This document shows, one piece after another, positions 3,107 through 22,434 of a stretch of 64,000 nt of DNA. Source of the DNA: Magnetococcales bacterium (lineage in GTDB: Bacteria; Pseudomonadota; Magnetococcia; Magnetococcales; JADFZT01). The position numbers and the translations under genes were made by a program. Under the pieces are notes generated by a model that was not told where the DNA came from, made no database searches, and worked only from the letters and a program-made list of their open reading frames with translations. Position 1 is the stretch's first letter; each line of letters starts with the position of its first letter. The stretch covers positions 25,819 to 89,818 of the forward strand of contig JADFZT010000006.1 in the NCBI GenBank assembly GCA_015232395.1. Direction: 5' to 3'.

Positions 3107-3122
3107 TTAATAAAATCAACTG

Positions 3123-5131: not shown

Positions 5132-5356
5132 ATGACCACCATCAAAAAAATAGGCCGCCAAAACGTCAAAATCCACGTAGGTGATCACAATCCACCCCAT
5201 GTCCATATTGTCGGCGGCCCAGTCTCCCTGATGGTCATTCTCACTCCTTTTGAAATAATCGGCATCGGTAGGAACGAGGCCTCTGAAGCGCTCAAGTGGG
5301 TCAAGACCAACAGAGAATACCTGCTTGCCAAGTGGGAGGAAATCAATGCCCAGTGA
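5132..5356 (+). CDS. DUF4160-family small protein
   Basis: A 74-residue protein beginning MTTIKKIGRQNVKIHVGDHNPPHVHI. The phrase DHNPPHVHI is the hallmark of DUF4160. I chose the ATG at 5132 because GGGGAG lies about 9 bases upstream; a GTG at 5126 is less likely. The downstream DUF2442-HTH gene overlaps its last codons. DUF4160/DUF2442 pairs are common in bacterial genomes and have been proposed as toxin-antitoxin-like modules, but the activity is not established. A second, orphan DUF2442 gene lies at 62808. Confidence 0.7.
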   Translation: MTTIKKIGRQNVKIHVGDHNPPHVHIVGGPVSLMVILTPFEIIGIGRNEASEALKWVKTNREYLLAKWEEINAQ

Positions 5357-5837: not shown

Positions 5838-5858
5838 TGCAAGGAAAAGGGGGGAAAG

Positions 5859-7301
5859 TTAACGAATGGCCGAAGAGGAAGAGAGCGGCTGCACTTGGCG
5901 AAATTGGGATCCAGAGGATTTAAGCAGGGCAGCCACTCGATCCGCCACTTCAGAGCCTTGGGAGATGCAGGCTCGAACCGAGACGCCGTGGAGATAGTTG
6001 CCGGTGAGAAAAATACCAGGGAGGGATTTCAGGGATTCGTCGATCCCTTTGAGGAAGAGTTGGTGGCCGATGTCATAACGGGGAAGAGCGCGATCATGGC
6101 GGATCACCTGGGCAAGTGTAGGTTCCCCTTTGAGTCCGACCAGACGTTTGAGATCCTGCTGGCTGCGAGCAAGCAATTCTTCATCGGATCGATCCAACAC
6201 CCCCGGATCCCGCGCGCCACCCATATAGTTCATAAAGAGCGCCTGCCCCTGGGGAGCCCGATGCGCAAAGAGGGTGGCAGGCCACAAGGATCCCACCACC
6301 TTGAACTCAGACTCCCGTTTCGGAATCAAGCAGCCGATGCCATCCAGGTCGTGGTCAATATTTTCCCGGGGGAAACCCAGATAGGTAACCGCCATGGGGG
6401 AGTAGGCCCGGCCAGAAAGAAGCAGGTGCAGGGAGCTGGAAAGGGATTGCAGCAAGCGTCCGGCATCCCCGGCAGGCGTCGCCACCACCACCGCATCCCC
6501 GTCAACGGTTTTGGACACCCCATCCTGAACATAAGAGACCGTCCAGCGGGTTCCCTGCCGCTCCACCCCGGCCACCCCACAACCGCTCTGAAATCCCTCG
6601 CCCAACTGTTGAGCCACCCGACCCGGCAGCGCAGCCATCCCCTCCTTGAAGGAAAAAACCCGCGCCTGGCAGGAAGAGGTCCGAATCCCCTTCACCTTGC
6701 GTACCATGGCCCCTTTCAGGATGGAGCCAAACTCATCCTCCAGTGCGCCAAACTGGATGAAGGTGGAACGCAAACAGGCCTGCTCCCCATCTCCAGCCAG
6801 AGTACCCGAAACATAAGGCTCAATCGCCCGCTCATACACCTCCCGACCAAATCGGCGGCTGATAAACTGCGCCACCGTCTCCCCTTCCCCACCCCCCCGG
6901 GGAATGAAAGGCTCCATCAGCAGGCGGAGCTTGGCTTTGAAGGAGAGCAGATTGGTGGTGAGAAATCCAGCCGGGGTAACCGGCACAGAGGTGGGCTTGC
7001 CATCCTTCACCAGATAGCGGCGCTTGGCGGCCTCCTGGCGAAAAACCATCTCGGAGGAGAGACCCAGGGTTTGGCAGAAAAAATCGACTTCAGGGAGAAA
7101 ATTGAACACGCAGGTGGCCGCATGTTCCAGGAGAAACCCGGACTCTCTACGGCTTTGGATGAGCCCACCCGGACGGTGTGCCCGCTCCAGGACCACAACA
7201 TCGATCCCTTTTTGCTTGAGCCAGAAGGCGGTGGTTAACCCGGACACCCCGCCGCCAATCACAATAACGCGATTGGCGTGCAGGGTGGTGGGGGTAATCA
7301 C
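5859..7301 (-). CDS. hemG: Protoporphyrinogen oxidase, HemY type
   Basis: 480 residues, a FAD-dependent amine-oxidase fold. The dinucleotide motif VIGGGVSGLTTAFWLKQKG sits at about 13-31, followed by the second FAD-binding phrase HRPGGLIQS and a C-terminal FAD motif GIFLTGNYLHGVSV. It oxidises protoporphyrinogen IX to protoporphyrin IX, the penultimate step of haem synthesis. It begins at a GTG (7301) with AAGGA 8 bases upstream and lies 60 bases after the last gene of a five-cytochrome cluster on the same strand. That arrangement suggests haem supply is co-expressed with the cytochromes. HemY-type enzymes are oxygen-dependent or use other acceptors; the acceptor here is unknown. Gene name is sometimes hemY. 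Confidence 0.85.
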   Translation of the reverse strand: MITPTTLHANRVIVIGGGVSGLTTAFWLKQKGIDVVVLERAHRPGGLIQSRRESGFLLEHAATCVFNFLPEVDFFCQTLGLSSEMVFRQEAAKRRYLVKDGKPTSVPVTPAGFLTTNLLSFKAKLRLLMEPFIPRGGGEGETVAQFISRRFGREVYERAIEPYVSGTLAGDGEQACLRSTFIQFGALEDEFGSILKGAMVRKVKGIRTSSCQARVFSFKEGMAALPGRVAQQLGEGFQSGCGVAGVERQGTRWTVSYVQDGVSKTVDGDAVVVATPAGDAGRLLQSLSSSLHLLLSGRAYSPMAVTYLGFPRENIDHDLDGIGCLIPKRESEFKVVGSLWPATLFAHRAPQGQALFMNYMGGARDPGVLDRSDEELLARSQQDLKRLVGLKGEPTLAQVIRHDRALPRYDIGHQLFLKGIDESLKSLPGIFLTGNYLHGVSVRACISQGSEVADRVAALLKSSGSQFRQVQPLSSSSAIR

Positions 7302-7360
7302 GGATAGATTCCTTGATCAGGAAACGTTTTGAGAAAAACAGGGCCGACTAAACGACAACA

Positions 7361-8893
7361 TCAACCCTCAGACTTTTTGGACTGGGCACTCTTGAGCCAC
7401 CACAACTCACCGGCACCAATCAACAGTGCCACCAGCAGAGCGACTATCAGAGGCTTGGAGCCCGATTTGGGTACCAGCAGCATCCAATACCAGGTGGACA
7501 AGGTGTGCTTGGAAGCGGTTTCGCTGTTGGATCCATCCCAGGCGGAAAAGGCGATGGGAATAAAGCGGCCCTTTTCGATCTGGAGATCGTTGGCATCGTC
7601 GGTCATCAGAGGCCGGGTCATCAGCACCCGCCAGGTACCATTGCTGTAGCTCCCCTTGGCGGTCAGGCCCACACCAGCGGCATCCCGGGGTTCCATATTA
7701 CCGAACCCGGTGGCGTTGGCATATTGGACGGTTTCATGCGCCTCGGTGGTGCCACTCTTCCACATCCACAGGTTGACCGGGTTGCTGGGATCCCCCATGC
7801 CGAAGTAGGGCTTTTCCATCCCTTCCGGAATGGTAATCGGCAGCTGGACCGCGATGGCATCCTCAAAGAGTTCCTCATCGGCGATGGAGATAGCGGTCTC
7901 ATCACCGGGTATGGATTTGGTACGGTCGTCCCACTCAAGGAGCATCGCCAGGTTTTCATCGTCAAACATCGCCCGCACCGAAACGGAATCGTTGCTGTGG
8001 GTAAAAAACCGCTCTTTGGCGATAATCTGGGGCAGCATGAAGAAGGTGTTGGGCTCGATGGCATCCCACCTGGGATCGTTGGTCTCGGTGGGAAGCTCAC
8101 CCTCCACTCTGTTGACCTGAATCACGGTCTTATCAGCATTGGGCGCATGCCCGGTTGCTGTCAGGGAAGAGGCATAGTTGGCAACATGCCAGATCTCTTC
8201 GCTGGAAAGCTTTTTCTTACTGGCCGGATCGGCAAACGACGGCATCTGCGTGCCAGGAATACCGGTCACCACCCGGGTATAGATATCCTTGGGATCGGTG
8301 GATCCCCGGAAGGTCCAGGGCTTGGTGAGATTCCGGGGCCAGGTGCGCTCGCCGTTATCCCCTTTCAGCTTTTTGATGGCGTCCCCTTTGCCCTTCGTGC
8401 CATGACACTCGGCGCACAGATCAATAAAGATCTCCTTGCCCTTGGCGAGACTCTCGGGGGAGGATTGTACCTGCTTGCCGTAATCCACCTGGGTTTCCGG
8501 GGTCTCTTCTTCATACCCGGCAAAGGTTTTGATATAGGCCGTCAGATCCCACATATCCTGCTCGGAGACGATGTCGGACCAGCCGGGCATGTGGGTGCCG
8601 GGCATGCCGTCCTTGATCATCCGATAGATATCTTCATCGTTGGGGACCATGTCGTCGAGACCGGTGGTCTTGATCTTATACATGCCACCGGTAAAATCCC
8701 TGGGCGGCGGGTTCATTCTTTCCGCGCCGGGTCCATATCCATCCCCCTCTTCGCCGTGACACCATACACAGCGTTTGGCATAAACTTCAGCCCCGTTGTC
8801 GGCATTACCCGGTTTGGCGTTGGCCGGGCTGGCGATAAAGGCCCCGACAAAGACGGCCAGCAGTGTCCGTTTAATCATGTGCCTGGTCCCCAT
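7361..8893 (-). CDS. Di-haem cytochrome c with C-terminal ethylbenzene-dehydrogenase-type haem domain
   Basis: About 510 residues. After a Sec signal (MIKRTLLAVFVGAFIASP) come two class I cytochrome c domains with CVWCHG and CAECHG. A region of about 200 residues follows that resembles the EB_dh family, a b-haem-binding fold of dehydrogenase gamma subunits, with VNLWMWKSG, GTWRVLMTRPL and IAFSAWDGSN. It ends in one membrane helix near the C-terminus. The start could be the ATG at 8893 or at 8878; the first follows the upstream stop by one base. It is the last cytochrome of a tightly packed leftward cluster and probably shuttles periplasmic electrons for the bd-like protein. Confidence 0.8.
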   Translation of the reverse strand: MGTRHMIKRTLLAVFVGAFIASPANAKPGNADNGAEVYAKRCVWCHGEEGDGYGPGAERMNPPPRDFTGGMYKIKTTGLDDMVPNDEDIYRMIKDGMPGTHMPGWSDIVSEQDMWDLTAYIKTFAGYEEETPETQVDYGKQVQSSPESLAKGKEIFIDLCAECHGTKGKGDAIKKLKGDNGERTWPRNLTKPWTFRGSTDPKDIYTRVVTGIPGTQMPSFADPASKKKLSSEEIWHVANYASSLTATGHAPNADKTVIQVNRVEGELPTETNDPRWDAIEPNTFFMLPQIIAKERFFTHSNDSVSVRAMFDDENLAMLLEWDDRTKSIPGDETAISIADEELFEDAIAVQLPITIPEGMEKPYFGMGDPSNPVNLWMWKSGTTEAHETVQYANATGFGNMEPRDAAGVGLTAKGSYSNGTWRVLMTRPLMTDDANDLQIEKGRFIPIAFSAWDGSNSETASKHTLSTWYWMLLVPKSGSKPLIVALLVALLIGAGELWWLKSAQSKKSEG

Positions 8894-8894
8894 C

Positions 8895-9662
8895 TTATTC
8901 GTGACCCCAAGATCTGGGCTGTTGTCCGGTGTAGTCATACAGGAACAAAATCACCTTCCAAATTTCATCCTCGGTCAGGAAGTCCTGCCAGATCGGCATG
9001 GATGAAATCCAGGGAGCGGCCTCCTTGGGCAAGCCCGGGCCACCAGTGGCGATCCGCCAGAAAAGAAACGACTCCTGGAGCTGGGCGATGGTGCCCACAT
9101 CCTGGAAGTTGAGCGGAACGGGATTGAGCGCAGGGGCATAAGGCCCTTTACCATCCAGCTTGTCTCCGTGGCAAAACTGGCAGTTTTGGATGTAGACCGC
9201 ACCGCCTTCGTAGACCAGCTCCTTGAATTTTTCCGGATCCTCCTTTTCAAACTTGCGATAAGGATTTTCCAGAGTGGCCAGGTTGTAGCGCTTGCCATAG
9301 GCCTTGACGGCGCTGGGAGGAGCCGGATGGATGGAACGCAGCTCCACCGGAGCCTCAAAGCTGGGCAACATTTTGCCGTAAGCGTAGTAACCGGCGGCCA
9401 GTGGTACCAGCAGGAAGACGATGTAGCGCATCACCTTCTTGGAGGGATCCTCCACCAGGGCCACGATGGGGGCGACCAGTTCCCGGGTCCCCTCCTCGGT
9501 GAAGGTGTAGACAGTGAACACCCCGGCCACCACGAAAAACATATACATGGTGAGCAGACTTGCGGGGATCAGCTGGCCCAGTAGGACATCGAACACCAGG
9601 ATAAAGCCGTAATAAATGCCGACAGTGACCAGTACGGCTTCCAGTAGCTTGGGTATCTTCAT
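8895..9662 (-). CDS. Membrane-bound mono-haem cytochrome c
   Basis: 255 residues. Three hydrophobic segments lie in the first 115 residues (near 8-30, 38-55, 78-95). A periplasmic cytochrome c domain follows, with CQFCHG near residue 160 and a distal methionine candidate in SSMPIWQDFL. The gene lies 21 bases downstream of a di-haem cytochrome gene, and its stop is immediately followed by the next cytochrome gene, so it belongs to one operon. The N-terminal membrane part with a C-terminal c domain suits an anchored electron carrier within a larger membrane complex. The exact family name is not recognised. Confidence 0.8.
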   Translation of the reverse strand: MKIPKLLEAVLVTVGIYYGFILVFDVLLGQLIPASLLTMYMFFVVAGVFTVYTFTEEGTRELVAPIVALVEDPSKKVMRYIVFLLVPLAAGYYAYGKMLPSFEAPVELRSIHPAPPSAVKAYGKRYNLATLENPYRKFEKEDPEKFKELVYEGGAVYIQNCQFCHGDKLDGKGPYAPALNPVPLNFQDVGTIAQLQESFLFWRIATGGPGLPKEAAPWISSMPIWQDFLTEDEIWKVILFLYDYTGQQPRSWGHE

Positions 9663-9683
9663 TGTATCGGTGCCTTCCCTTAC

Positions 9684-10496
9684 CTATTTCAGACCGGCCA
9701 GGTAATCCACGAGCAGATCCAACTCCACGGCGTAGAGCTGCTCACCGTAATCCGGGGGCATCATGTCAGCCTCAAACCCTTCGGCCACATCGGCGTTGGG
9801 ATCCATGATCGCCCGCCGGAGGTAAGCCTTGTCCACCTTGCCTCCAATTGCCCTGAGATCCGGACCCATGTCCCCTTCCCCATCAGCCACCAAGTGACAC
9901 ATGCCACACTGGAGCCCTTCGAGCACCTCTTCGGCACTGGTCCACACTTCACGGGTTTCGGCCTCTTCTTCCTCTTCTTCCTCGTCGGCGCTCATGTCGG
10001 GAATCTCAACGGTCACTTCCATGCCGTTGGAGTCCTGCATATAGGCGATCGTCGCGAGAATTTCAGGTTCGGAAAGGCCGATGGAGCCCCCGGAAACGTC
10101 GGGCATGGGGCTGACGGTATCGTTGGTACCCGCTTTGCCGAATCCCGCCACCACGTAGGCGGAAGGATCGACCAGGGATTCCATCAGATAGCCCTCTGCG
10201 TCGGAAGCTTCTCCGGCATAGCGGCTATCCGCCAGCCGCTCTCCGACAGCACTCCCCAATTTTTCCAACATGGGTGCGCGGCCCAACTCGTTATGGCAAA
10301 GCTTACAGGTACCCTTGCCGTTGACAGTTCGCTCACCCAGAGCAATAAAGCCGTCCATATCCATGGCCGTGAGGTCGATCTTTTCCTCTACCGGCGGGGG
10401 GGCCGGCGTGATCTGGGGAATTCCAAAATTGGAATACCCCCCAAACATACCGATGACGAACAGGCTGAAGGCCGCTACTTGCAGGAATATTTTCAT
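9684..10496 (-). CDS. Di-haem cytochrome c with acidic linker
   Basis: 270 residues. An N-terminal signal or anchor helix (MKIFLQVAAFSLFVIGMFGG) precedes two cytochrome c domains with CKLCHN near residue 62 and CGMCHL near residue 197. A run of glutamates (about 170-180) separates the domains. The start at 10496 has AGGGA close upstream and lies only 7 bases from the stop of the bd-like gene. The two domains are of similar size and may have arisen by duplication. It is predicted to be periplasmic and to exchange electrons with the bd-like membrane protein. No substrate-binding domain is visible. Confidence 0.8.
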   Translation of the reverse strand: MKIFLQVAAFSLFVIGMFGGYSNFGIPQITPAPPPVEEKIDLTAMDMDGFIALGERTVNGKGTCKLCHNELGRAPMLEKLGSAVGERLADSRYAGEASDAEGYLMESLVDPSAYVVAGFGKAGTNDTVSPMPDVSGGSIGLSEPEILATIAYMQDSNGMEVTVEIPDMSADEEEEEEEAETREVWTSAEEVLEGLQCGMCHLVADGEGDMGPDLRAIGGKVDKAYLRRAIMDPNADVAEGFEADMMPPDYGEQLYAVELDLLVDYLAGLK

Positions 10497-10502
10497 GGTT
10501 CC

Positions 10503-12902
10503 CTAGGTCCTCCAGTAACCGGTGACGGGGGTCTTCCTGCCACTGACCGTAGCCAGCCAGAAGACAAAAATGACCATGGCCATAAAGATGATAGTGCCCA
10601 CCGAAACCACGTTGGCGGCATATCCCAGGGTCGGCGTGAATGCGTCCGGCGAGTTATCCCGCATGATGTCCACCACATGCCAGTGCTGACGGATACCGGA
10701 GCGGATATACCCCATGAGACCCATGAGCCAGGTGAAGGAGACCGCGAGCAGGAAGAGGGCATATTGACTTCGTCCCGATACCCGACCCCATTTCAGCGGT
10801 GCCACCTCCTTGGCGCCTTTATACATGAAGCTGTCGATCACCCCGCTGGCCACCAGCACCACGAGGGTGGTCAGCACCTGGGGAATGGAGGCCGCCACCT
10901 TATAGACCGTGTTGGTGAAGTAGCCGTAGTAGATGCCCAGGATCAGAATATTGATGATACCGGCGGTAAAGAGGGCAAACTGGGCGGCATTACCCGCCTT
11001 GACCCATGACACCACCGGCGTCTTGTTGGCTCGGCGATAGACCAGGAACGACAGTGCTGTGAAGAGAATCATGATGTTCACAGCGGTGTTTTTGGCAGGC
11101 ATGATGCCCAGCGGCCCCAGATATTTATGGTAGGGTCCACCCAAAGCCTGTAGTTCCTGATTGGTCAGCACCAATGTGTGCGGCGTAAACCAGACCAGGA
11201 AGGCCCCGACAATCACGGCAGCGAAATACTTGATATACTTGTTGTATCTCACCGCCCCATCGCTTCGTCCCATGCCACACCAGAGATAATAGTTGGCCGA
11301 GAGAAACAGCGTGCCGATCAACACCGCCTGGATGATGAAGAGCCAAGCAAAGACGCCACCCATCAGGGTGATACCCATCTGTTGGCTGTAGGCGTAGATT
11401 TCAGCCGTCAGATAGTAGCCCGCGAAGGGGAGCGGCAGCAGCGCGCTGATAGCGATAAAGTTGGCGGTATAGCCCATCCAGTCATAATGCGCCTTCTCCT
11501 CTTTGGTGCGGGAGGAGAGAAACTTGAAGGCGGCATAAGCCCCCACCACCGATCCACCGTAGGCCACATTGGCCACCACCCGGTGAAGGTTGATGGGATT
11601 CCAGAGGAAGTTGTGCATCGCAGCCCAGGTATCCCCGGAAAAGGTCCCGGAAGCATCCACCCCGGCCGGACTCATCATGAAGGTGAGCCAGGAGTTGGCG
11701 AGCAGCATCAGGACGGTACCGACGGCGTTCAGGAGCAGGCCCAGGGTGAGATGCACCCATTTTTTAAAGCCGCCCTGGAGCCATTTCCAGCCATAGTAGT
11801 AGATGTAAAGACAAGCGCTCTCAGCGAAAAAGAGCAGCGCATAGTAGAACATCGACTCCTTGAAGATGGTGGTCAGGTAGAGCATCAAATCGGGATAAAA
11901 GACCAGAAGGGAGAGGGTCAGAAAACCACCCAGAATCGCTGTCAGGGAGTAGGCTGTGATGGAGACCTTGATAAACTCATAGGCCATGTTGTCATAGCGC
12001 TGATCCCGGGTCTTCATGCCGATGGCTTCGATGATGAAGACAAAGATGGGCACGGCCAGAACAAAAGCGGCAAACCAGAGATGAAGCTGGGCCACCAGCC
12101 ACACCACGACCCGGCCATTGACCCCGGCGATCTGGGGATAATCCTTGGCGGTGAGTTTGGGTGCCGGGCCGTAAAGGGGCTCTTCTTCCACCAGCTCCTC
12201 AGCAGCCTCTTCAGCCGGAGCAGCCTCTTCAGCGACAGCCTCCTCAGACTCAGCGGCCTCTTCCACATCGGCATCCGCTGCCACCTCTTCAGCTGAAGTA
12301 TCCGGCTCAGCGTCGGCGACTTCCGCCACGGCCGCGATCACCTCTGGCGCCTCTTCAGCCACAGGAGCCGCATCAGCTGCCGTCTCGGCGGCCTCAACAG
12401 CCGCTTCCACCGTAGCGGAGATCTCAGAAGCAGCCTCTTCGACAGCCGTTACCGCCGTTTCCTGTACGGTTTCGACCGCCGCAACAGGCTCGGCCACCAA
12501 CGCAGCGGGCGCCTCAATCACACCCGCCACCTCGGGAACCGCCGGTATGGCCACCGGGGCATCCGGGAGAGCTGCTTCGACAGCTTCGGTCACCGCAGTA
12601 GCCGGAGCTGATTCGACAGCGTCCTTGGCGGCAGCCAGGGGATCAGCCATCACCGGCATGGCCAAAATTTCAGCCGGTAGACCCGGATCCTCAGCCACGG
12701 CTGTGGCTGATGTATCAGCGGTTGCCAGGGGATCGGCCATCACCGGCATGGCCAAAATTTCAGCCGGTAGACCCGGATCCTCACCGGAGTCCGCCCGGGC
12801 CAGGGAACCGCCCCATGCCGTCGGACCAAAATTGATGATCATGAGGGCCAGGACCCAAACCCCGATCACCCATCCTGCTTTTGCGGAAAAACGCGGCCTC
12901 AT
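10503..12902 (-). CDS. Cytochrome bd-like multispanning membrane protein with Ala/Glu-rich extension
   Basis: 799 residues. The start at 12902 is supported by AGGAG just upstream. Residues 1-38 form a signal or anchor segment. Residues about 39-243 are a low-complexity Ala/Glu/Val region. The rest has about 14 membrane helices and resembles CydA: QLHLWFAAF (His274, like E. coli H19), FFAES (Glu361, like E107), NPINLHRVVANVAYGG (His440, like H186), NIMILF (Met611, like M393) and GIRQHWH (like GRQPW). By eye, the E99 and E445 equivalents are Tyr353 and Ser. There is no quinol Q-loop and no CydB gene. From memory, Nitrospira encode similar bd-like putative oxidases beside cytochromes c. It may be fed by cytochrome c rather than quinol. 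The substrate (O2, NO or other) is unknown. Confidence 0.7.
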   Translation of the reverse strand: MRPRFSAKAGWVIGVWVLALMIINFGPTAWGGSLARADSGEDPGLPAEILAMPVMADPLATADTSATAVAEDPGLPAEILAMPVMADPLAAAKDAVESAPATAVTEAVEAALPDAPVAIPAVPEVAGVIEAPAALVAEPVAAVETVQETAVTAVEEAASEISATVEAAVEAAETAADAAPVAEEAPEVIAAVAEVADAEPDTSAEEVAADADVEEAAESEEAVAEEAAPAEEAAEELVEEEPLYGPAPKLTAKDYPQIAGVNGRVVVWLVAQLHLWFAAFVLAVPIFVFIIEAIGMKTRDQRYDNMAYEFIKVSITAYSLTAILGGFLTLSLLVFYPDLMLYLTTIFKESMFYYALLFFAESACLYIYYYGWKWLQGGFKKWVHLTLGLLLNAVGTVLMLLANSWLTFMMSPAGVDASGTFSGDTWAAMHNFLWNPINLHRVVANVAYGGSVVGAYAAFKFLSSRTKEEKAHYDWMGYTANFIAISALLPLPFAGYYLTAEIYAYSQQMGITLMGGVFAWLFIIQAVLIGTLFLSANYYLWCGMGRSDGAVRYNKYIKYFAAVIVGAFLVWFTPHTLVLTNQELQALGGPYHKYLGPLGIMPAKNTAVNIMILFTALSFLVYRRANKTPVVSWVKAGNAAQFALFTAGIINILILGIYYGYFTNTVYKVAASIPQVLTTLVVLVASGVIDSFMYKGAKEVAPLKWGRVSGRSQYALFLLAVSFTWLMGLMGYIRSGIRQHWHVVDIMRDNSPDAFTPTLGYAANVVSVGTIIFMAMVIFVFWLATVSGRKTPVTGYWRT
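12634..12783 (-). repeat. Direct 60-bp repeat inside the bd-like gene
   Basis: Two copies (12634-12693 and 12724-12783) differ by one base and are offset by 90 bases. They encode EDPGLPAEILAMPVMADPLA twice, with a 30-residue period, just after the signal segment. Near-identity at DNA level indicates a recent in-frame duplication. Confidence 0.9.
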
Positions 12903-12935
12903 TGTCGCTCCTATCAAGCCCATCCGAGGGGTCCT

Positions 12936-13073
12936 TTATTGGTGAAAGAACAGGGAGATGCCCTGAAGATTCATCATGAGCAGGTCCAAAAGAAAAAAGG
13001 CGACGCCAAAAACACCCAGCCCCGCACCATAGGGAATAAGAAATTCCTTGTACCGTTCAATAATCGCTTTCAC
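12936..13073 (-). CDS. Small single-helix membrane protein, 45 residues
   Basis: GTG start at 13073 with GGGAG upstream; the product is (V/M)KAIIERYKEFLIPYGAG followed by a helix of about 20 hydrophobic residues (GVFGVAFFLLDLLMM) and a short tail ending FFHQ. It lies 34 bases before the bd-like gene and 19 bases after another tiny membrane gene on the same strand. Short helices of this kind are typical accessory subunits of terminal oxidases (CydX and CcoQ are precedents), so I infer a structural subunit of the bd-like complex. No recognised family. Confidence 0.55.
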   Translation of the reverse strand: MKAIIERYKEFLIPYGAGLGVFGVAFFLLDLLMMNLQGISLFFHQ

Positions 13074-13091
13074 GGCCCGACTCTCCCACAC

Positions 13092-13196
13092 TCAAAGGAA
13101 CCAGATAAAAAACAGGATCACCCCAATCAGGACCGTGGTGAAAAGAGCCGGTCCGGCCAAGGGGTATTTGTCAATTCCCGTAGGTTGGTCACTCAT
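13092..13196 (-). CDS. Small single-helix membrane protein, 34 residues
   Basis: ATG at 13196 with GGAG 7 bases upstream. The product opens MSDQPTGIDKYPLAGPALFT and then has one hydrophobic helix, VLIGVILFFIWFL, up to the stop. Codon use and the clear ribosome-binding site support translation despite its size. It sits between a cytochrome c gene and the 45-residue membrane gene in the leftward cytochrome operon. I infer a small subunit of the bd-like/cytochrome complex by analogy with CydX or CcoQ-type peptides; there is no sequence family match. Confidence 0.55.
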   Translation of the reverse strand: MSDQPTGIDKYPLAGPALFTTVLIGVILFFIWFL

Positions 13197-13297
13197 TTGT
13201 CTCTCCCCCTCCCCACTTGAGGGGAGGTCAGGCCACACCACCATGGGGGGTGATGCGGCCCATTCACGAAAATGCCAAGGTTACGGCTGGATCAGCC

Positions 13298-13660
13298 TTA
13301 CTTGCCCTTGCAGTTACACATCACACGCAGATAGGCCACCAACCCTTCGGTCTCTGCATCGGTAATGGTCTGGGACCAGGGGGGCATGATGGGGGATTTG
13401 CTCACAGCAGGCCCGCCATCCTTGATCACGTTGCGCATGTCGTCGTCGGTGAGCTTGCTCATCTCGGCGCCGTTGGTAAAGTTGCGCGGGGTTACCGGCA
13501 TATCCTTGGTAACGTTGGGTCCGTCTCCCTTACCGGTGGCTCCGTGGCACTGGGCACAATAGAACTGATAGACCTGTTCGCTATCTTCAGCCCGAACATC
13601 GCTTGCGGTCAAAAGACCGAAGGTGACCAGGGCAGCGGCGAAGATGGGAAGTTTGGGCAT
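13298..13660 (-). CDS. Small periplasmic mono-haem cytochrome c
   Basis: 120 residues from the ATG at 13660, chosen because AGAGGA lies 8 bases upstream and a clean Sec signal follows (MPKLPIFAAALVTFGLL, cleavage near VRA-ED). One haem site, CAQCHG, lies near residue 36, with a distal Met candidate in SPIMPPWSQTI. The C-terminus carries two extra cysteines (MCNCKGK). It is a class I cytochrome c and the second gene of the leftward cytochrome cluster. The likely role is soluble electron transfer between a quinol-oxidising complex and the membrane-bound cytochromes. Confidence 0.8.
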   Translation of the reverse strand: MPKLPIFAAALVTFGLLTASDVRAEDSEQVYQFYCAQCHGATGKGDGPNVTKDMPVTPRNFTNGAEMSKLTDDDMRNVIKDGGPAVSKSPIMPPWSQTITDAETEGLVAYLRVMCNCKGK

Positions 13661-13692
13661 TGTCAACATCCTCTCATCCAGATTTCTTGCGA

Positions 13693-14352
13693 TCACTTAA
13701 AATTGGCCACGAAGGCGGAGACGTTTTTGATGTCCTTGTCTTGGAGGATGCCTGTGAAAACCGGCATCATCTTGACGGGCTTGAACACCTTGGGCTGGGT
13801 CATGTAGGCATAGATCCAGTCCGGGTTGAGCCGCTTCTTGGCCCCGACCAGGGTGGGGGCGGAGAGACCACCGGAGATCTTCTTGCGGTCCGGATAGAGA
13901 TGACACCCGGAACAGGGCTGCTTTTTGGTGAAGATCATCTTGCCTTTCACGTTCTTCTTGGGCTTGATGACACCCGCCTTGACCGCGTCAGAGGTGAGCC
14001 CCATGAGGAAATCCGTCACGTTGGCGGCATCCCCACCAGCCAGCTTCGGATGGTCACCGGCATTTTTTTCGGTGAGGGAGTTGTATTTCAAAGGACGAAT
14101 CGGTTGGGGATCCTGCAACCAGCCCGCAAGCCAGGGTTTTTGAAACTTGGAACCGGCATACCATAGCTCCGGACCCTTTTTGGCCATTTGGTCGGCGATG
14201 GTTTTTTCCTGAGCCGGGCCTTGGGTGTAATGACACTCCTGACAGTTATTGGCTTTGAAGGCCGCTTCCCCGGCCGCTGAATCGGCCTTGGCTGCAACAG
14301 GCGCCGCCAACAGCAGGCCCATCCCCAGAAAGACCCTTACCGCTCGTTTCAT
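13693..14352 (-). CDS. Periplasmic di-haem cytochrome c (first gene of the leftward cluster)
   Basis: 219 residues from the ATG at 14352, which has AGGAGAG about 6 bases upstream; an upstream ATG at 14379 lacks a site. A Sec signal (MKRAVRVFLGMGLLLAAP) precedes two cytochrome c domains with CQECHY near residue 37 and CSGCHL near residue 147. Spacing and phrases such as KPWLAGWLQDPQPIRP resemble cytochromes that accompany bd-like and nitrogen-oxide reductases, but the partner is not known. It heads an operon of seven or eight leftward genes whose promoter lies in the 0.8 kb divergent region. Confidence 0.8.
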   Translation of the reverse strand: MKRAVRVFLGMGLLLAAPVAAKADSAAGEAAFKANNCQECHYTQGPAQEKTIADQMAKKGPELWYAGSKFQKPWLAGWLQDPQPIRPLKYNSLTEKNAGDHPKLAGGDAANVTDFLMGLTSDAVKAGVIKPKKNVKGKMIFTKKQPCSGCHLYPDRKKISGGLSAPTLVGAKKRLNPDWIYAYMTQPKVFKPVKMMPVFTGILQDKDIKNVSAFVANFK

Positions 14353-14447: not shown

Positions 14448-14491
14448 TATTTTGCCAAAAGACATTTCACAATTTGATATTTGGCAAAATA
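14448..14491. promoter_or_regulatory. 12-bp perfect inverted repeat (possible operator or hairpin)
   Basis: TATTTTGCCAAA at 14448-14459 is matched by its exact complement TTTGGCAAAATA at 14480-14491, with a 20-base spacer. It lies about 95 bases upstream of the leftward cytochrome operon start. It is directly followed by a small hairpin CACCC-AAAA-GGGTG (14493-14506). An operator for a dimeric regulator or an mRNA structure is possible. Confidence 0.5.
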
Positions 14492-15129: not shown

Positions 15130-16890
15130 ATGCAAGGAAAACTCAAGAAAACGTTGATGCTGGCAGGCGTCTCCTCGGCATTCCTGCTTGGCGGAATGTT
15201 GCCGGGAGAGGGTGTTGCCAAACCCAAAATCCCGGCGTGGATGCACGGATCCGAGGTTCCCACCGAGCTGCCCACAGTCGACACGCAGTTGATGTACAAC
15301 GCGGGTGGTTTGGATGGTAAGGTCGCCATCCTCGGTATTCCCAGTATGCGGACCTACCGCCACATCGATATCGGCGTGGATCTGCATGAGCCGGTGTTCA
15401 GCGGTACCAACGCCGGTAACAAGAACGGTACCTCTGACGGCAAATATCTTTACGTCAATGACAAGGGTGCCAACACCATTGGTGTCGTCAACCTGCAAAC
15501 CGGCTTCCTGGAGCGCCTCATCTCCATGCCGGTGCCTTTCGGCATCCATCACATCTCTCTGGACGACACCGGCAAGTTTCTCTACGCCACCGGTGAGCTC
15601 TCCGGTAAGATGGCCAAAGTGGAGATTTCCACCGGTAAGGTGCAAGTGATCGACTGGGGTCCTGCTCCCAGCGCCCCTGACTATCTGGATGTGGACAAGA
15701 AAGGTCGTTACGTCTTTTCCGGTAACTACTACCACTCCACCGTGGGTGTCTTTTCCACCAACCCCTTCAAGCTCATCAAGGAAATCCCCGTGGGTAAGAA
15801 TCCCCACGGTACCGACGTGATTCCCGAGAGCACCCTGGTGATTGTCAGCGACAAGCTGTCGGCCACCATGACCGTGATCGATGTGGAAAAGCTGGCTGTT
15901 AAAAAGGTCATCCCGACCTGTGCTGGTCCTCTGCACTCGGTGATGGATGTCTATGATGCCAATGGCGGCACCTACGAGCCTGGCAAGGACAGCCCCGAAG
16001 GTCTCACCTCCAAGTATGCCTACGAGAGCTGCTTCGTCTCTGACTCCAACGTCAAGATCGACCTGAAAAAGCTGGAAGTGGTGGATGAAATTCCCACTCA
16101 CTACCGCACCGGTCACATCGCGATTGCCCAGGACAACAGCTACGTTTTTGCTCTCAACAAGTTTTCCACCGGTCTCTTCAGCCCCACCGGCGTGATCTTC
16201 CCCGTGAACTTTGAGATGTGGGATGCCCGTGAGGATAGCCCGACCTACGGTAAAACCATGCGCATCATCCCCGTGGATGGCGAGCCCCACAACGCCAAGG
16301 TGATCCACTCCTATCAGGTGAAGCGTTGGAACATGGGTCAAGCTGAAAAGGGTGGTCTGCTCAGTGGCGACACCCCGGCCCTCTTCCCGGCTCACCGGTC
16401 CAAGTCCAAAGTGTCGTTCCTGCCCAAATCCAAAGAGCCCCCGGGAGTCCGGATGAAGGATGGCGTCAAGGAGGTCCACATCAAGGCCTTCAGCTATGGC
16501 TACATCCCCCGTCAGGTTCGCGTGAACAAGGGTGAAAAGGTACGTATCTTCGTCACCAACATCGATCGCGCTTCCGGTATCACCAAAAACCCCGACGTGA
16601 CCATGGGCTACACCATCTATGGTCCCTACGGTCTGCGTACCAACCTGAGCGCCCCCCGTGGTGTGACGGCGGTGACCGAATTTGTGGCTGACATTGCTGG
16701 TGAATATGAAGTCTACTGCCAGCATTTCTGCGGTCCTCTCCATCTGGAAATGCGCGGTACCTTCTTTGTGGACGATCCTGAGAAAGAAGCCTCCAACCTC
16801 GCCATCGGTGACTATAAAGAAGCCCAGGAACTGCCTGGTCTGACCGAAGAAGGTGAGCTGGAGATCGCTCCGGTGGTTGAAAAGTTCTAA
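15130..16890 (+). CDS. NosZ-family (nitrous oxide reductase-like) Sec-exported copper protein with altered ligands
   Basis: 586 residues. A Sec signal without a twin-arginine motif (MQGKLKKTLMLAGVSSAF) precedes a propeller domain. That domain keeps most NosZ landmarks: LHEP (His86), IHH (140-141), NPHG (226), GPLH (269), YRTGHI (329), FALNKFSTGLFSP and EPHN (387). The C-terminal cupredoxin (about 445-550) has the CuA-type set CQHFCGPLHLEM (Cys530, Cys534, His538, Met541). Compared with known NosZ by eye, the second His of the DxHH pair is Glu87, the first CuA His is Met492 (TMGY for THGF), and the Trp between the CuA cysteines is His532. Sec export recalls clade II NosZ. It lacks nosD and nosL beside it, so N2O reduction is likely by family but unproven. 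Confidence 0.8.
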   Translation: MQGKLKKTLMLAGVSSAFLLGGMLPGEGVAKPKIPAWMHGSEVPTELPTVDTQLMYNAGGLDGKVAILGIPSMRTYRHIDIGVDLHEPVFSGTNAGNKNGTSDGKYLYVNDKGANTIGVVNLQTGFLERLISMPVPFGIHHISLDDTGKFLYATGELSGKMAKVEISTGKVQVIDWGPAPSAPDYLDVDKKGRYVFSGNYYHSTVGVFSTNPFKLIKEIPVGKNPHGTDVIPESTLVIVSDKLSATMTVIDVEKLAVKKVIPTCAGPLHSVMDVYDANGGTYEPGKDSPEGLTSKYAYESCFVSDSNVKIDLKKLEVVDEIPTHYRTGHIAIAQDNSYVFALNKFSTGLFSPTGVIFPVNFEMWDAREDSPTYGKTMRIIPVDGEPHNAKVIHSYQVKRWNMGQAEKGGLLSGDTPALFPAHRSKSKVSFLPKSKEPPGVRMKDGVKEVHIKAFSYGYIPRQVRVNKGEKVRIFVTNIDRASGITKNPDVTMGYTIYGPYGLRTNLSAPRGVTAVTEFVADIAGEYEVYCQHFCGPLHLEMRGTFFVDDPEKEASNLAIGDYKEAQELPGLTEEGELEIAPVVEKF

Positions 16891-16982: not shown

Positions 16983-17480
16983 ATCAACAGCCTCTTAAAT
17001 CCTGGCGGATTTTCGGTACGATCCTTTTTCGCTCTCCTGCTGCTCCTGGGTATCTTGAATGGATGTGGTGCCAAGGAGGAAGCCCCCCCTCCGCTGCCGA
17101 CTGAAACGGCGGATGTGGTGGTGAAGCGGTTTTATGAATTGATATCCGAAGCCCAGATTCGCGGCGGATCCCTCCCCATTCGGGAGGCGTTCAAGCTGAT
17201 CGATAGTGAAAGTTCCCAGATCAGCCAAGCCAAATTTGTCCAAATCGTCAAACGCTACCCTTCGGGATTTCAGATCCAGGTAGTTGATACCAAAGTGAGT
17301 GCCAAAGAGGGCAATGCGGCGGTGACGATTTCGTATAAGATGCCTTCCATGTTTGGTGACGGCTACGACGTTCAGACCGACGTATTGCTGAAAGTGGACA
17401 AGGCCAGCAACAGTTGGAAAATCGACTTTACCGGGGAAACCGATGATCAGGACCCCAACGCCATGAAACGGCAAGGTTAG
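16983..17480 (+). CDS. Lipoprotein, NTF2/DUF4878-like, with apparent ATC start
   Basis: About 165 residues. The frame contains a full lipoprotein signal: basic-polar start, FFALLLLLGI, then the lipobox LNGC. There is no in-frame ATG or GTG before it. The ribosome-binding site AGGAG (16970-16974) lies 8 bases before an ATC at 16983, so an ATC start, or a sequencing error, is likely. The TTG at 17055 would remove the signal. The mature part (about 120 residues) has TADVVVKRFYELISEAQ and a beta-rich end typical of NTF2/DUF4878-like lipoproteins. It lies between the NosZ-like gene and the cytochrome b gene; the role may be assembly or docking. Confidence 0.65.
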   Translation: MNSLLNPGGFSVRSFFALLLLLGILNGCGAKEEAPPPLPTETADVVVKRFYELISEAQIRGGSLPIREAFKLIDSESSQISQAKFVQIVKRYPSGFQIQVVDTKVSAKEGNAAVTISYKMPSMFGDGYDVQTDVLLKVDKASNSWKIDFTGETDDQDPNAMKRQG

Positions 17481-17525
17481 GATCTGGGTCGGTCAAAGCC
17501 GGAACCCGAAGGAACGAAACCACTG

Positions 17526-18164
17526 ATGTCTGGAAAATTTTCCAACTGGCTGGAGGAGAGAACCGGGTTCAGAACATGGTCCCGGCGCAAGGGGGCCCAA
17601 GCGGTTCCCAGCCATGTGGGATGGTTTCACTACTGCTTTGGCGGTTTAAGTCTTTTCATCATCGTGTTACAGGTGCTCTCCGGGATCTTCATGGTCTTTT
17701 TTTACAAGCCGGAGCCCCTGGAAGCGCTGAAGAGCATTGAATATTTGAGCAATGAAGTCACCCTGGGATGGTTTTTCAGGAATCTGCACCGGTGGGGATC
17801 CACGCTGCTGATAGCGACCATTTTTACCCATATGATCGCGGTGATTCACCAGCGGGCCTACCGCAACCCGAGGGAGCTTAACTGGGTATCGGGTCTGTTA
17901 CAGTTCATGGTGGTGTTTTTGCTCTTGGCCACTGGATTGATTTTACCCTGGGACTGGCGGGCCTACTGGTCATTTTCGATTTGGGTGGATTATTTCGCCA
18001 CCTGGCCTTTGGTCGGTGATTTTTTGAAAAATTTTCTGCTGGATACTTTTTCCATCAACCGCAGCTTCGTGCTTCACATTCTGGTGCTGCCGTTGACGCT
18101 TTTCATCCTGCTTTTTTTCCATTTTCGAATGGTCAAAAAGCATGGCATCTCGGAACCGCTGTGA
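17526..18164 (+). CDS. Cytochrome b (b6-type N-terminal half)
   Basis: 212 residues with four membrane helices. It has the haem-ligand pattern of cytochrome b/b6: NLHRWGS with THM 13 residues on in helix B, and VLHILVLPL with FHF 13 residues on in helix D. The quinol-side phrase GLILPWDWRAYWSF is also present. It would bind two b haems and oxidise quinol as the cytochrome b of a bc-type complex. The C-terminal half is encoded by the next gene, 19 bases on. No Rieske gene lies nearby, so electron bifurcation may be absent or differ. A fused paralogue of both halves lies at 29456. Confidence 0.85.
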   Translation: MSGKFSNWLEERTGFRTWSRRKGAQAVPSHVGWFHYCFGGLSLFIIVLQVLSGIFMVFFYKPEPLEALKSIEYLSNEVTLGWFFRNLHRWGSTLLIATIFTHMIAVIHQRAYRNPRELNWVSGLLQFMVVFLLLATGLILPWDWRAYWSFSIWVDYFATWPLVGDFLKNFLLDTFSINRSFVLHILVLPLTLFILLFFHFRMVKKHGISEPL

Positions 18165-18182
18165 GGGGTCTCGGGAAGATGG

Positions 18183-18869
18183 ATGGCTGACATGTCTGAA
18201 GAGCCGGATATCATACGGGATCCCAAATATGATCCCCCCTACCCCCAGGACTTTTACCGGTTCTGGCCCAAACATGTCTTCAAAACCATTTTGGTCTTGG
18301 GACTTTTGATGGGCGGGTTGGGTTATCTGACTTTTCAGTTTCAGGTACCGATGGATTCCAACATGCCACCTCTGCCGGATGAGGGAATGTGGGTTCCGGC
18401 ACCGGAGTGGTATCTCTTTACCCTGTTTCAGCCCTTTTGGTACCTCACGGGGGAGGATGTCAGCTGGCGACCTCTCTTCACTTTCTGGGTGCCGGTTGGG
18501 GTGCTGATCCTGCTTTTTGCGATGCCATTTGTGTTTGGCCGCAAGCGGGCTCCGGTGGAGGGTGTGGGGGTTGTCAAGCGGACCGGATTGGCGGTGCTTT
18601 TTCTGTTTATCTGGGGTGCGGGTATCGCTGGCGTGGTGGGGAGTGGTTATCCTGCCAAGACCACCGGCTGTCCTTCCTGCCACAACCCGATGATGGGTCA
18701 GCGGCAGGCACTGCCTCCGGCGGATATGGGCAAGTTTTATCGGGAGGCCCGGGAGCAGCAGATTCAGGTGGGACGTTACCGGATCGGCAACACCATGGGG
18801 ATGGGTGACTCCTACAAGGATGCCAACTGGCAGTTGCGGCACTTTTATGAACCCACGATGACCTGGTAG
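18183..18869 (+). CDS. Cytochrome b C-terminal half (subunit IV type) with C-terminal c haem
   Basis: 228 residues. Three membrane helices (near 30-55, 105-125, 140-160) and the subunit IV phrase VPAPEWYLFTLFQPFWY place it as the second half of cytochrome b, including the PEWY-like quinol-site motif. After a fourth helix the C-terminus has one c-haem site, CPSCHN, near residue 162, and ends in a conserved-looking tail HFYEPTMTW. The end resembles that of the fused paralogue (HWFFPQVVW). The fused c haem could take over electron delivery to soluble cytochromes in the absence of a Rieske protein and cytochrome c1. The next gene starts within 40 bases. Confidence 0.85.
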   Translation: MADMSEEPDIIRDPKYDPPYPQDFYRFWPKHVFKTILVLGLLMGGLGYLTFQFQVPMDSNMPPLPDEGMWVPAPEWYLFTLFQPFWYLTGEDVSWRPLFTFWVPVGVLILLFAMPFVFGRKRAPVEGVGVVKRTGLAVLFLFIWGAGIAGVVGSGYPAKTTGCPSCHNPMMGQRQALPPADMGKFYREAREQQIQVGRYRIGNTMGMGDSYKDANWQLRHFYEPTMTW

Positions 18870-18904
18870 TGAGTGTCATGGATGATACGGGTAGGAGATG
18901 GGGT

Positions 18905-20098
18905 ATGCGGGCCTTGATCCTCTCTTTGGGGATGCTGGTGGCGATGGTTGGCGGTGAAGTGATTGCTGTGGAATCCCAGCCAATGCAAGAGTTTCAGCTG
19001 CCTGAAGGCATGAGTGCCATACAGGATCTGGCGGTTGATACGGCATCGGGTGATGTCTGGTTTGTGGAAAAGGTGGGCAGGCAGTTGGGTCGTTTTCATT
19101 TGGCTGATCAGACTTTTGCCACCCACTCGCTTCCGGAAGCTTGGGGGGATGTTGGCTTTGCCACCATGACCCGGGGTCCGGACGGTACTCTCTGGTTTAC
19201 GGTCAATCGGGGTGTGCAGGTGGTGGAGGAGACCCACTATTTGGGGGCTTTTGATCCGACGAAGGGCGTTTTTTCCCAGCACCCTCTCCCCCCGGGAAGT
19301 GCTCCTGAAGCGTTACAGGTCGCATTGGATGGCGTGGTGTGGTTTTTGGATCCGGATGCCAACAGCGTTCGGGCCTATGATCCCCGGGATCAATCCCTCA
19401 GGGATTTTGCGATTCCCACACCTCATGCTCAACCTCGTGGGATTGCTTTGGCCCGGGATGGTTTGGTCTGGTTTAGCGAACCCAACATCAACCGCATTGG
19501 CAAGCTGGATCCCAAGAGCGGTGAAGTGACGGAATATGATATTCCCACACCGTTTGCCAATCCCGGTGCGATCACGGTGGATGGCCGGGGGTTGGTTTGG
19601 TTTGTGGAGATGACCTCCAATCGGTTGGGACTTTTTTATCCCGATCTGGAGCGGTTTGACGAAGCGGAGATTCCCACCCCTCGGGGGTTGCCGGTGGCTC
19701 TGGCTGCGGATCAGGAAAATCGGATCTGGATATCGGAACTGCGGGGCAATCAGATGACCCGGTTTGATCCGGCGGAGGCGACTTTCACTTCGGTGGCTGT
19801 ACCGACTTTCAACAGTCTGCCGGGGGAAATATCACTGGATCTGGAGCGTCAGCGGCTGTGGTTTTCGGAGAGTGCCACCGAGGCCAAAAAGCTGGGTATG
19901 TTGAATATTGGTGTCGATCAGGTACCCGGGGTAGCGGAGTTGAATGCCGCTGAGGCTGAATCCACCACTGCCCAGAAGGAGACGCTTAAGGGGACTGATT
20001 CCAAGAGCACTCTCTATTTGGGATTGATTTTGCTGGTCATTCTCGGTGCGGTGACGGCGCTGGCGCTTAAAAATCCTTGGCGCGGGGCACCCAAATGA
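18905..20098 (+). CDS. Vgb/NHL-type seven-bladed propeller protein, membrane anchored (1)
   Basis: 397 residues. I start at the ATG at 18905 because GGAG lies 8 bases upstream and a signal peptide follows (MRALILSLGMLVAMVGG). The body has repeated blades with the signature WF(S/V)E...NRIGxxDP (DGLVWFSEPNINRIGKLDP and variants), as in virginiamycin B lyase and SMP-30/NHL propellers. A C-terminal membrane helix (LGLILLVILGAVTALAL) anchors it outside the membrane. The lyase activity is unlikely to be relevant here; a scaffold or copper-site assembly role, taking the place of NosD, is speculative. The next gene overlaps its stop codon (ATGA). Confidence 0.75.
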   Translation: MRALILSLGMLVAMVGGEVIAVESQPMQEFQLPEGMSAIQDLAVDTASGDVWFVEKVGRQLGRFHLADQTFATHSLPEAWGDVGFATMTRGPDGTLWFTVNRGVQVVEETHYLGAFDPTKGVFSQHPLPPGSAPEALQVALDGVVWFLDPDANSVRAYDPRDQSLRDFAIPTPHAQPRGIALARDGLVWFSEPNINRIGKLDPKSGEVTEYDIPTPFANPGAITVDGRGLVWFVEMTSNRLGLFYPDLERFDEAEIPTPRGLPVALAADQENRIWISELRGNQMTRFDPAEATFTSVAVPTFNSLPGEISLDLERQRLWFSESATEAKKLGMLNIGVDQVPGVAELNAAEAESTTAQKETLKGTDSKSTLYLGLILLVILGAVTALALKNPWRGAPK

Positions 20099-21084
20099 GG
20101 CGAACCCTGCTGCTGGCGGTGCTCTTGTTACCGTTCATGGGATTCGAAGCCTGGGGATCGTCGGGGTTTAAAAGTTTTCCGCTCCCTGGGGCCCATGCCT
20201 TACCGGCCCGTATGGCGATTGATCCCCAAGGGGATATCTGGTTTGTGGAGTCCAATGGCAATCGGATTGGACGGTTTAAGCCGGAGGGAGAAAAATTTAC
20301 GTCATTTGAACTCCCCACCGTTCGGGCGGTACCAGCGGATATAGCGGTCGCCCCTTCGGGAAAGATTTGGTTTACAGAGCAGGATGCCAATCAGTTGGGG
20401 GTGTTGGATCCCGAAACCGGGACGATTGTGGAGTATGACATTCCGACCATTGAGAGCCTGCCCCGGCGGCTGACAGTGGATGCCAAGGGCGTCGTTTGGT
20501 TCAGCGAATTTTACGGCAACCGGATTGGTCGGTTTGACCCCCAAGAGGGGCGCATCAAGGAGTACAAACTCCCGACACCCGGGAGTCAGCCCATGGGGAT
20601 TGTGGCGCATGAAGATGGCTCGATCTGGTTTTTGGAGACCCAGGGCAACCAACTGGGTCGGTTAGACCCCGAAAGCGGCACCATTCGGGAATATCCTTTA
20701 CCAACGCCTTTCATGATTCCTCAAGATCTGGCGATTGGCTTGGGGGGGAAGTTTTGGTTCGGGGCGCGCAAGGATCAAAAGCTGGTTTCGTTTGATCCGG
20801 TGTCGGAAGTTTTTCAAACCTATGATCTACCCCATGGCGGGGTGATTGCGGGGCTTTCGGCGGGAGGTAAGGGAACCATTTTGTTTTCACTTGGATTTCC
20901 TGGAAAAATCGGCATCTTCAATCCGGTTTCTCAGGGCTTTCAGGAGTTTAAGCTCTTCCTGGGCAACAGCCGGCCCAATGATATCGAGATGGACCCCCAC
21001 GGGGACATCTGGTTTTCGGACATCGGCCAAAACGCCATTGTCAGGACGAGCGGTGCGGAAGTAACGAATCTATTGGTAAAGTAG
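20095..21084 (+). CDS. Vgb/NHL-type seven-bladed propeller protein, periplasmic (2)
   Basis: 329 residues, starting at the ATG that overlaps the upstream stop by ATGA. Signal peptide (MRRTLLLAVLLLPFMGF, cleavage near AWG-SS). Almost every 42 residues a blade motif recurs: DIWFVESNGNRIGRFKP, KIWFTEQDANQLGVLDP, VVWFSEFYGNRIGRFDP, SIWFLETQGNQLGRLDP and others. It is similar to the preceding protein but lacks the C-terminal anchor, so the two are probably tandem duplicates. Sequence family: virginiamycin B lyase-like. In this setting it more likely binds or stabilises a respiratory partner than acts on an antibiotic; that is inferred from operon context. Confidence 0.8.
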   Translation: MRRTLLLAVLLLPFMGFEAWGSSGFKSFPLPGAHALPARMAIDPQGDIWFVESNGNRIGRFKPEGEKFTSFELPTVRAVPADIAVAPSGKIWFTEQDANQLGVLDPETGTIVEYDIPTIESLPRRLTVDAKGVVWFSEFYGNRIGRFDPQEGRIKEYKLPTPGSQPMGIVAHEDGSIWFLETQGNQLGRLDPESGTIREYPLPTPFMIPQDLAIGLGGKFWFGARKDQKLVSFDPVSEVFQTYDLPHGGVIAGLSAGGKGTILFSLGFPGKIGIFNPVSQGFQEFKLFLGNSRPNDIEMDPHGDIWFSDIGQNAIVRTSGAEVTNLLVK

Positions 21085-21111
21085 TTTTATCATGCAAGGG
21101 GGACGAGAAAG

Positions 21112-22050: not shown

Positions 22051-22087
22051 GAAGGTTTTGACCCAACCGACCTGATTGATCTATCAA

Positions 22088-22127
22088 AGAGGGGGCACGT
22101 TCCGTGGGGCGTGCCCCCTCTTTTTTT
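22088..22127 (+). terminator. Strong rho-independent terminator
   Basis: A 12-bp perfect stem AGAGGGGGCACG / CGTGCCCCCTCT with a 10-base loop is followed by seven Ts. It ends the NosZ-like operon 38 bases after the cytochrome c stop. Confidence 0.9.
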
Positions 22128-22434
22128 GGGGAAAGCCACAGGATAAATTTTTGCTTTTCCAAAATGGATTTTGACTGGAACACCCCTTCAGGCAGGATAG
22201 ACGTTGTGAAAAAAAGCGGGCTGGGTGAATCCTTAAACATCTGCCTAATTGACTCTCCTCAATTTTTTAGTCACCTCTTTCAGGTATACCGTCAGCAGAG
22301 TGCTCTTGTGACTGTTGACCCATTTTTTTTAAAATGGGTGGTCTGTTTTTTCTCCATTCACATTGTCACCATCCCTTGGCAAAATCAGGGACATCATTCC
22401 TCTCGGACAGTTTTCCCTCTAAGGAAGGTTTTGG
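22128..22434. other. Gene-free region with promoter for the next cytochrome gene
   Basis: About 300 AT-richer bases after the terminator. The only pattern I can support is the FNR-like box at 22249. No small gene with a ribosome-binding site was found. Confidence 0.5.
22249..22262. promoter_or_regulatory. FNR/Dnr-like box
   Basis: TTGA-CTCTCC-TCAA, extended by one base to ATTGA/TCAAT. Core half-sites and spacing equal the FNR-family consensus TTGAT-N4-ATCAA except for the innermost T/A pair. It lies 173 bases before the ATG of the cytochrome gene at 22435, which suggests low-oxygen or nitric-oxide control. Confidence 0.4.

Follow-up and report, generated by a model that had tools for sequence, protein, structure and literature searches.

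The 64,000-nucleotide stretch analysed here (the window; positions 25,819 to 89,818 of contig JADFZT010000006.1 from a Magnetococcales bacterium, assembly GCA_015232395.1) carries on its minus strand, from 14352 to 5859, an operon built around a membrane protein that resembles the CydA subunit of cytochrome bd. As read from the window, the operon starts with genes for a dihaem and a monohaem c-type cytochrome, two mini membrane proteins and the bd-like protein, followed by a dihaem c-type cytochrome, a membrane-anchored monohaem cytochrome c, a dihaem cytochrome c with an EB_dh domain and a HemG/HemY-type protoporphyrinogen oxidase (Table 1). The initial annotation, made from the sequence alone, had described five cytochrome proteins with eight haems and two mini membrane proteins around the bd-like protein, with hemG after them, and all of this stands: the five cytochromes flanking the bd-like gene hold eight CXXCH motifs (2+1+2+1+2), short open reading frames resembling both mini membrane proteins are present in many relatives, and the last gene matches TIGR00562. 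What it overlooked are a gene cluster running divergently from the operon, which encodes L-NosZ, the clade III lactonase-type N2O reductase, and a wider set of haem genes. Coordinates are window positions throughout, and residue numbers are those of Escherichia coli CydA unless marked as window numbering.

Table 1. Features of the bd-like operon and of the divergent L-NosZ cluster.
Feature	Position	Strand	Evidence or remark
Dihaem c-type cytochrome (CQECH, CSGCH), opens operon	13693..14352	-	In most loci having upstream sequence
Monohaem c-type cytochrome (CAQCH)	13298..13657	-	Conserved in relatives
Mini membrane protein 1, likely 34 aa via internal ATG (MSDQPTG...)	13092..13244	-	
Mini membrane protein 2, 51 aa via GTG	12936..13091	-	
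bd-like membrane protein, 806 aa	10503..12923	-	PF01654, AlphaFold2 core model, residue alignment
Dihaem c-type cytochrome (CKLCH, CGMCH), N-terminal transmembrane helix, four-gene core	9684..10496	-	CXXCH, conservation; immediately follows the bd-like gene in the majority of relatives
Monohaem cytochrome c (CQFCH), membrane-anchored	8895..9662	-	Domain and CXXCH; best conserved among the operon's cytochromes (most fetched loci at about 60-80% identity)
Dihaem c + EB_dh protein (haem-b type, alternative NxrC-like), C-terminal transmembrane helix, two CXXCH	7361..8938	-	Cytochrom_C; EB_dh PF09459, E=2.2e-24; TIGR03477 at 111 bits, under that model's cut-off
HemG/HemY-type protoporphyrinogen oxidase, closes operon	5859..7301	-	TIGR00562, 283 bits
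Perfect 12-nt inverted repeat, TATTTTGCCAAA N20 TTTGGCAAAATA	14448..14491	.	Between the divergent operons
L-NosZ, clade III lactonase-type N2O reductase	15130..16890	+	NF052460, 786 bits (cut-off 700)
L-NosZ partner genes, whole cluster	17055..22971	+	Order of the first five shared with L080 and L179
NTF2-like protein	17055	+	L-NosZ partner
Cytochrome b6	17526	+	L-NosZ partner
Subunit-IV/c fusion	18183	+	L-NosZ partner
Two Vgb-like propellers	18869, 20077	+	L-NosZ partners
Two c-type cytochromes	21112, 22435	+	L-NosZ partners

The bd-like protein, the sole PF01654 match within its own genome, consists of a signal-anchor, an extension of about 200 residues rich in Ala, Glu and Pro, and a CydA-like helical core (residues ~260-806). 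The extension (window ~12200-12785) contains a repeated EDPGLPAEILAMPVMADPLA segment and is missing from relatives. PF01654 covers residues 271-504 (E 1.6e-17), the N-terminal half only, and a search of solved structures by sequence returned canonical bd subunits only. An AlphaFold2 model of the core, built on a 44-sequence alignment (predicted local distance difference test score 84.6), has the CydA fold, with Z 34.3 to 7ose_A and Z 31-34 to solved CydA chains; helices fill the Q-loop region, and the Q-loop is indeed absent, as first annotated. The model is similar, too, to the alternative complex III subunit ActF (Z about 23), but CydA is much closer, and the operon encodes neither an ActB-type molybdopterin/iron–sulfur protein nor other subunits of that complex.

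To compare residues, 25 bd-like sequences were aligned with E. coli and other quinol-type CydA proteins using MAFFT. The equivalents of R9, H19, H126, H186 and R448 are invariant (25/25) and that of E107 is kept in 24 of the 25, which the bd-like proteins largely share with canonical CydAB along with the fold. Against this, E99 is replaced by Tyr in all 25 sequences, the K252 and E257 columns have changed (Met/Met in the window protein), the E445 equivalent has been replaced, and the M393 column is variable (L, C, S, A, F, V, I or M). Because a profile-profile comparison aligned the N-terminal half alone, the E445/M393 region rests on the MAFFT alignment. In canonical bd, M393 is the second ligand of haem b558, and E99 and E445 are important around the active-site haems; since the M393 column varies, the second b558 ligand is not conserved in the bd-like family. 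Of the canonical haem ligands, H19 and H186 are thus kept and M393 and E445 are not. Most of the residues first called from this protein, namely H19, E107 and H186 kept, E99 and E445 lost, and GIRQHWH in place of GRQPW, are borne out by the alignment; the supposed M393 equivalent is not, as the window protein has Leu there. Residues invariant in the bd-like proteins and not so in quinol-type CydA include H749, M734, M737 and K611 (window numbering), and an Arg directly follows the H186 equivalent (H447-R448, window numbering) in all bd-like rows, an invariance that quinol-type CydA does not share. The newly invariant His and Met residues are, judging by conservation, candidates for alternative second haem ligands.

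One scan of genome contigs yielded 274 relatives, and the neighbourhoods of 80 fetched loci mostly carry the same neighbour genes as the window operon; this number of relatives and this shared context indicate that the operon is more than a chance arrangement. Carriers include marine and oxygen-minimum-zone Alpha- and Gammaproteobacteria, Gallionellales, Ferrigenium, Mariprofundus, Deltaproteobacteria and Nitrospinota, and the core with its c cytochromes is conserved across Pseudomonadota, Myxococcota, Thermodesulfobacteriota and Nitrospinota. Plasmids and IMG/VR viral contigs, also scanned, gave no bd-like relatives. In a tree built by a quick method, with several long branches, Shimodaira–Hasegawa-like approximate likelihood ratio test (SH-aLRT) support only and no labelled OR-N references, the window protein falls inside a clade of Pseudomonadota, Myxococcota and Thermodesulfobacteriota proteins; a close Nitrospinota group adjoins this clade, and a 49%-identical Nitrospinota type is next out. 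The same tree sets quinol-type CydA apart from the bd-like proteins with 100% SH-aLRT support. Although the PF01654 match and the CydA fold are what an ordinary quinol-oxidising cytochrome bd would retain after drift, this separation, the replaced K252 and E257, the missing Q-loop and the lack of CydB in the locus make this reading highly improbable. The last point agrees with the initial annotation and refers to the genes neighbouring the bd-like gene, among which no cydB was found, a genome-wide CydB search not having been made.

Two side observations concern the marine relatives. A second, diverged bd-like module, consisting of a 712-720 aa bd-like protein with its own dihaem, transmembrane and EB_dh cytochromes, lies directly upstream in L016-L021, L025-L028 and other marine loci. 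In addition, a gene for an SCO1/SenC copper chaperone sits inside the bd-like operon of L016 (9110-9751) and L018 (9041), which hints at copper.

The cytochrome bd superfamily reportedly includes a family named OR-N, attributed to Murali et al. 2021. Going by papers that cite this work, the window protein is like OR-N in its CydA-type core (PF01654, CydA fold), in lacking a quinol site and a Q-loop, and in its c-type cytochrome neighbours, whereas the window locus has a single bd-like protein in place of the CydAA' pair of OR-N; such pairs are present in 22 marine relatives. Papers on Nitrospinota and Nitrospirales class bd-like proteins of this kind, among them most of those in Nitrospinota, as OR-N and infer cytochrome c as the probable donor (PMC10839748, PMC12342949). 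Judging by our tree, some of the Nitrospinota proteins given this label are probably closely related to the window protein.

The four-gene core (bd-like protein, dihaem c, transmembrane cytochrome c, dihaem c + EB_dh) has been described in Nitrospina gracilis (PMC3578206) and in Nitrospira, there as bd-like_3 with alt_NxrC_2 (PMC6606698), and both papers report the module from anammox bacteria too and propose that it serves NXR anchoring or reverse electron flow. The window operon has these four genes together, and its bd-like protein shares with that module the roughly 14 helices, the helices in place of the Q-loop and the loss of quinol residues. Likewise, Nitrospinota loci L170 and L180 encode a 49%-identical bd-like protein followed by dihaem c, transmembrane cytochrome c and dihaem c/EB_dh-like genes, the EB_dh match of this counterpart being weak (E 5.4e-4, below cut-off). 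Beyond the nitrite-oxidiser module, the window has additional dihaem and monohaem cytochromes, the two mini membrane proteins and hemG; and unlike that module, which is discussed around NXR, it stands beside L-NosZ. No NXR genes were seen among the neighbour genes read in the window, and a genome-wide NXR search was not made. The window operon belongs with an already described kind of module and is not a novel orphan system; the proposal of a cytochrome-c-fed terminal reductase in the initial annotation, which the residues and the co-encoded c haems fit, is thus partly supported and was largely anticipated. Our additions are the position beside L-NosZ, the co-occurrence with it and the haem-gene set, and in the open-licence literature, to which our search was limited, we found no description of the bd-like/L-NosZ linkage, the co-occurrence or the haem-gene set.

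Besides the window operon, nine bd-like operons (L042, L060, L062, L067, L069, L072, L078, L080 and L083) have L-NosZ within the locus that was fetched, and the first five L-NosZ partner genes of the window occur in identical order in L080 and in the Nitrospinota L-NosZ locus L179. Genome-wide, L-NosZ was found in 19 of the 26 genomes showing no second bd-like module at the locus (one a contig-edge fragment), a group that may hide dual-module cases because some loci end early upstream, and in none of the 22 genomes with a second module. Among 398 Pseudomonadota, three genomes have a close bd-like match; L-NosZ is present in two of these (G000 and G262) and in none of the 395 others. In 60 Nitrospinota, it is present in 8/9 genomes with the close bd-like type compared with 0/51 others (Fisher 3.5e-9, a descriptive value, as the close group was defined after the bit scores were known); these Nitrospinota matches score roughly 384-603 bits, below the NF052460 cut-off, and G449 has the weaker 400-bit type only. 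Ferrigenium, known from nitrate-reducing iron-oxidising cultures, has the bd-like operon and no L-NosZ match.

Several observations adjoin this linkage. Nitrospinota locus L173 (positions 1651-7996) is a second case of bd-like/L-NosZ linkage: here a 36%-identical L-NosZ-like protein, which at 414 bits stays under the cut-off, is encoded after a diverged bd-like module. L-NosZ is also encoded in Gallionellales/Nitrosomonadales metagenome-assembled genomes (L062, L069, L072, L078), in contrast to a pangenome study that reported no nosZ in Gallionellaceae (PMC10734462); clade III nosZ was probably outside the search made there. Downstream of the L-NosZ genes of the window, 23114-27361 encodes an ABC transporter together with membrane proteins of GldG-like and DUF type, a possible NosFY-like assembly system. 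The inverted repeat between the two operons may, from its position, be an operator that they share. FNR-like boxes gave 46 two-mismatch matches across the window against 27 expected, none of them exact and without intergenic specificity, and were not used.

The linkage bears on whether the bd-like complex is instead an electron-transfer hub between the quinone pool and periplasmic carriers, which would feed L-NosZ in the window genome and, working in the reverse direction, take electrons from NXR in nitrite oxidisers. The divergent arrangement and co-inheritance with L-NosZ, the resemblance to ActF, the functions proposed for the Nitrospira and Nitrospina module (PMC3578206, PMC6606698) and the reports from anammox bacteria, which are not O2 respirers, would all suit such a hub. 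However, the canonical quinol residues and the Q-loop are gone, the Glu107 proton path and the haem-binding His19 equivalent have been kept for no need obvious in an electron wire, cytochrome b6 and subunit-IV/c genes are already present within the L-NosZ cluster itself, and the 22 dual-bd genomes have the module without L-NosZ. On balance, we regard a hub as possible, if somewhat unlikely.

The second recurrent feature of the relatives is a set of haem genes, which many bd-like operons have on their downstream side. It encodes a USP-PCP_red protein, a HemY-type oxidase and a radical SAM/SPASM-PCP_red protein that comes nearest to the NirJ2 and AhbD models (about 300-322 bits, short of the cut-offs of both). 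Counterparts of the window hemG adjoin the radical SAM and USP-PCP_red genes downstream of the operon in relatives; in the window genome the latter two are adjacent on contig C60, and hemG is within the operon. PCP_red, a domain familiar from protochlorophyllide reductase, was found in 57/57 Nitrospinota with PF01654 matches versus 0/3 without, an absence that may reflect incompleteness because two of these three genomes are small (1.4 Mb). Similarly, among 20 sampled genomes of the window's order, the two that have bd-like genes (G000 and G015) also have PCP_red, and the only other match is a marginal one in G018 (E 9.4e-4). In Nitrospinota, to our knowledge not a phototrophic group, a single genome can hold as many as 8-11 PCP_red domain matches, spread over proteins that differ in size. 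That bd-like genes travel with radical SAM, USP-PCP_red and HemY-type proteins suggests a dedicated or modified haem. A role of the radical SAM gene solely in making haem d1 for NirS is weakened, as nitrite-oxidiser-type Nitrospinota, whose NirS content was not searched, carry it too.

Taken together, we give about an even chance to the window operon encoding a cytochrome-c-fed terminal reductase complex from an OR-N-like branch of the bd superfamily. The bd-like protein has apparently been rebuilt from the cytochrome bd plan to take electrons from c-type cytochromes: K252, E257 and the Q-loop are gone, His19 and His186 are invariant and Glu107 nearly so, and eight c haems are encoded in a conserved operon. 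From gene content, homology, residue conservation, predicted fold and co-occurrence, a complex, an electron route, an acceptor and a haem chemistry can be proposed. The mono- and dihaem c cytochromes, together with the dihaem c/EB_dh protein, would receive electrons in the periplasm and hand them to the membrane-anchored cytochrome c. From this they would move to a low-spin haem on the His186 equivalent of the bd-like subunit and then to an active-site haem bound by the His19 equivalent, while protons would come from the cytoplasm by way of the Glu107 equivalent. The terminal acceptor would most likely be O2 at very low concentration, nitric oxide (NO) being the main alternative, and the complex may work alongside L-NosZ in a denitrifying, probably microaerobic chain. 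Its haem would probably be supplied or modified by the dedicated set of HemY-type oxidase, NirJ2/AhbD-like radical SAM protein and USP-PCP_red.

Several points weigh against a cytochrome-c-fed reductase of this kind. The module has been reported from strictly anaerobic anammox bacteria, which disfavours O2 as the sole acceptor, and the published proposal for it is NXR anchoring or reverse electron flow. With E99 and E445 lost and M393 unconserved, the haem content of the bd-like subunit cannot be assumed, and the co-occurrence p-values take no account of shared ancestry. Moreover, no missing function needs filling, because the window genome encodes NirS (Cytochrom_D1, 422 bits), an aa3-type oxidase, further haem-copper proteins assigned by reading, and a norC-norB-norQ/D-like cluster on contig C13, likewise assigned by reading and without an NCBIfam match at 1e-30. 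The oxidase, the haem-copper proteins and the norCB-like cluster also led us to reject the idea that the bd-like protein is the only oxidase or NO reductase of this genome.

In a related alternative, this member of the bd superfamily would use electrons from cytochrome c to reduce NO and so provide L-NosZ with N2O. Its co-inheritance with L-NosZ is as expected, carriers handle NO (for instance through NirS in the window genome), Nitrospina has NirK without a known NO reductase (PMC3578206), and the active-site surroundings, with E99 changed to Tyr and E445 lost, are unlike those of O2-reducing CydA. Nevertheless, the norCB-like cluster already offers this function in the window genome, and several carriers of the module are without L-NosZ. 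We also know of no bd-superfamily member that acts as an NO reductase, and consider this alternative unlikely.

The module reported from nitrite oxidisers and anammox bacteria is found here in denitrifiers and other lineages as well. The locus and its relatives thus provide a testable context outside nitrite oxidation, in which L-NosZ is a neighbour and a haem-gene set recurs. Should the product of this set be a modified haem, the nitrogen cycle may involve a new cofactor. More speculatively, and in our judgement quite improbably, the complex could be a cytochrome-c-dependent reductase of NO or another nitrogen oxide whose haem is specially made by the radical SAM, PCP_red and HemY proteins and which acts in series with L-NosZ; this would amount to a respiratory route from NO to N2 without a haem-copper NO reductase.

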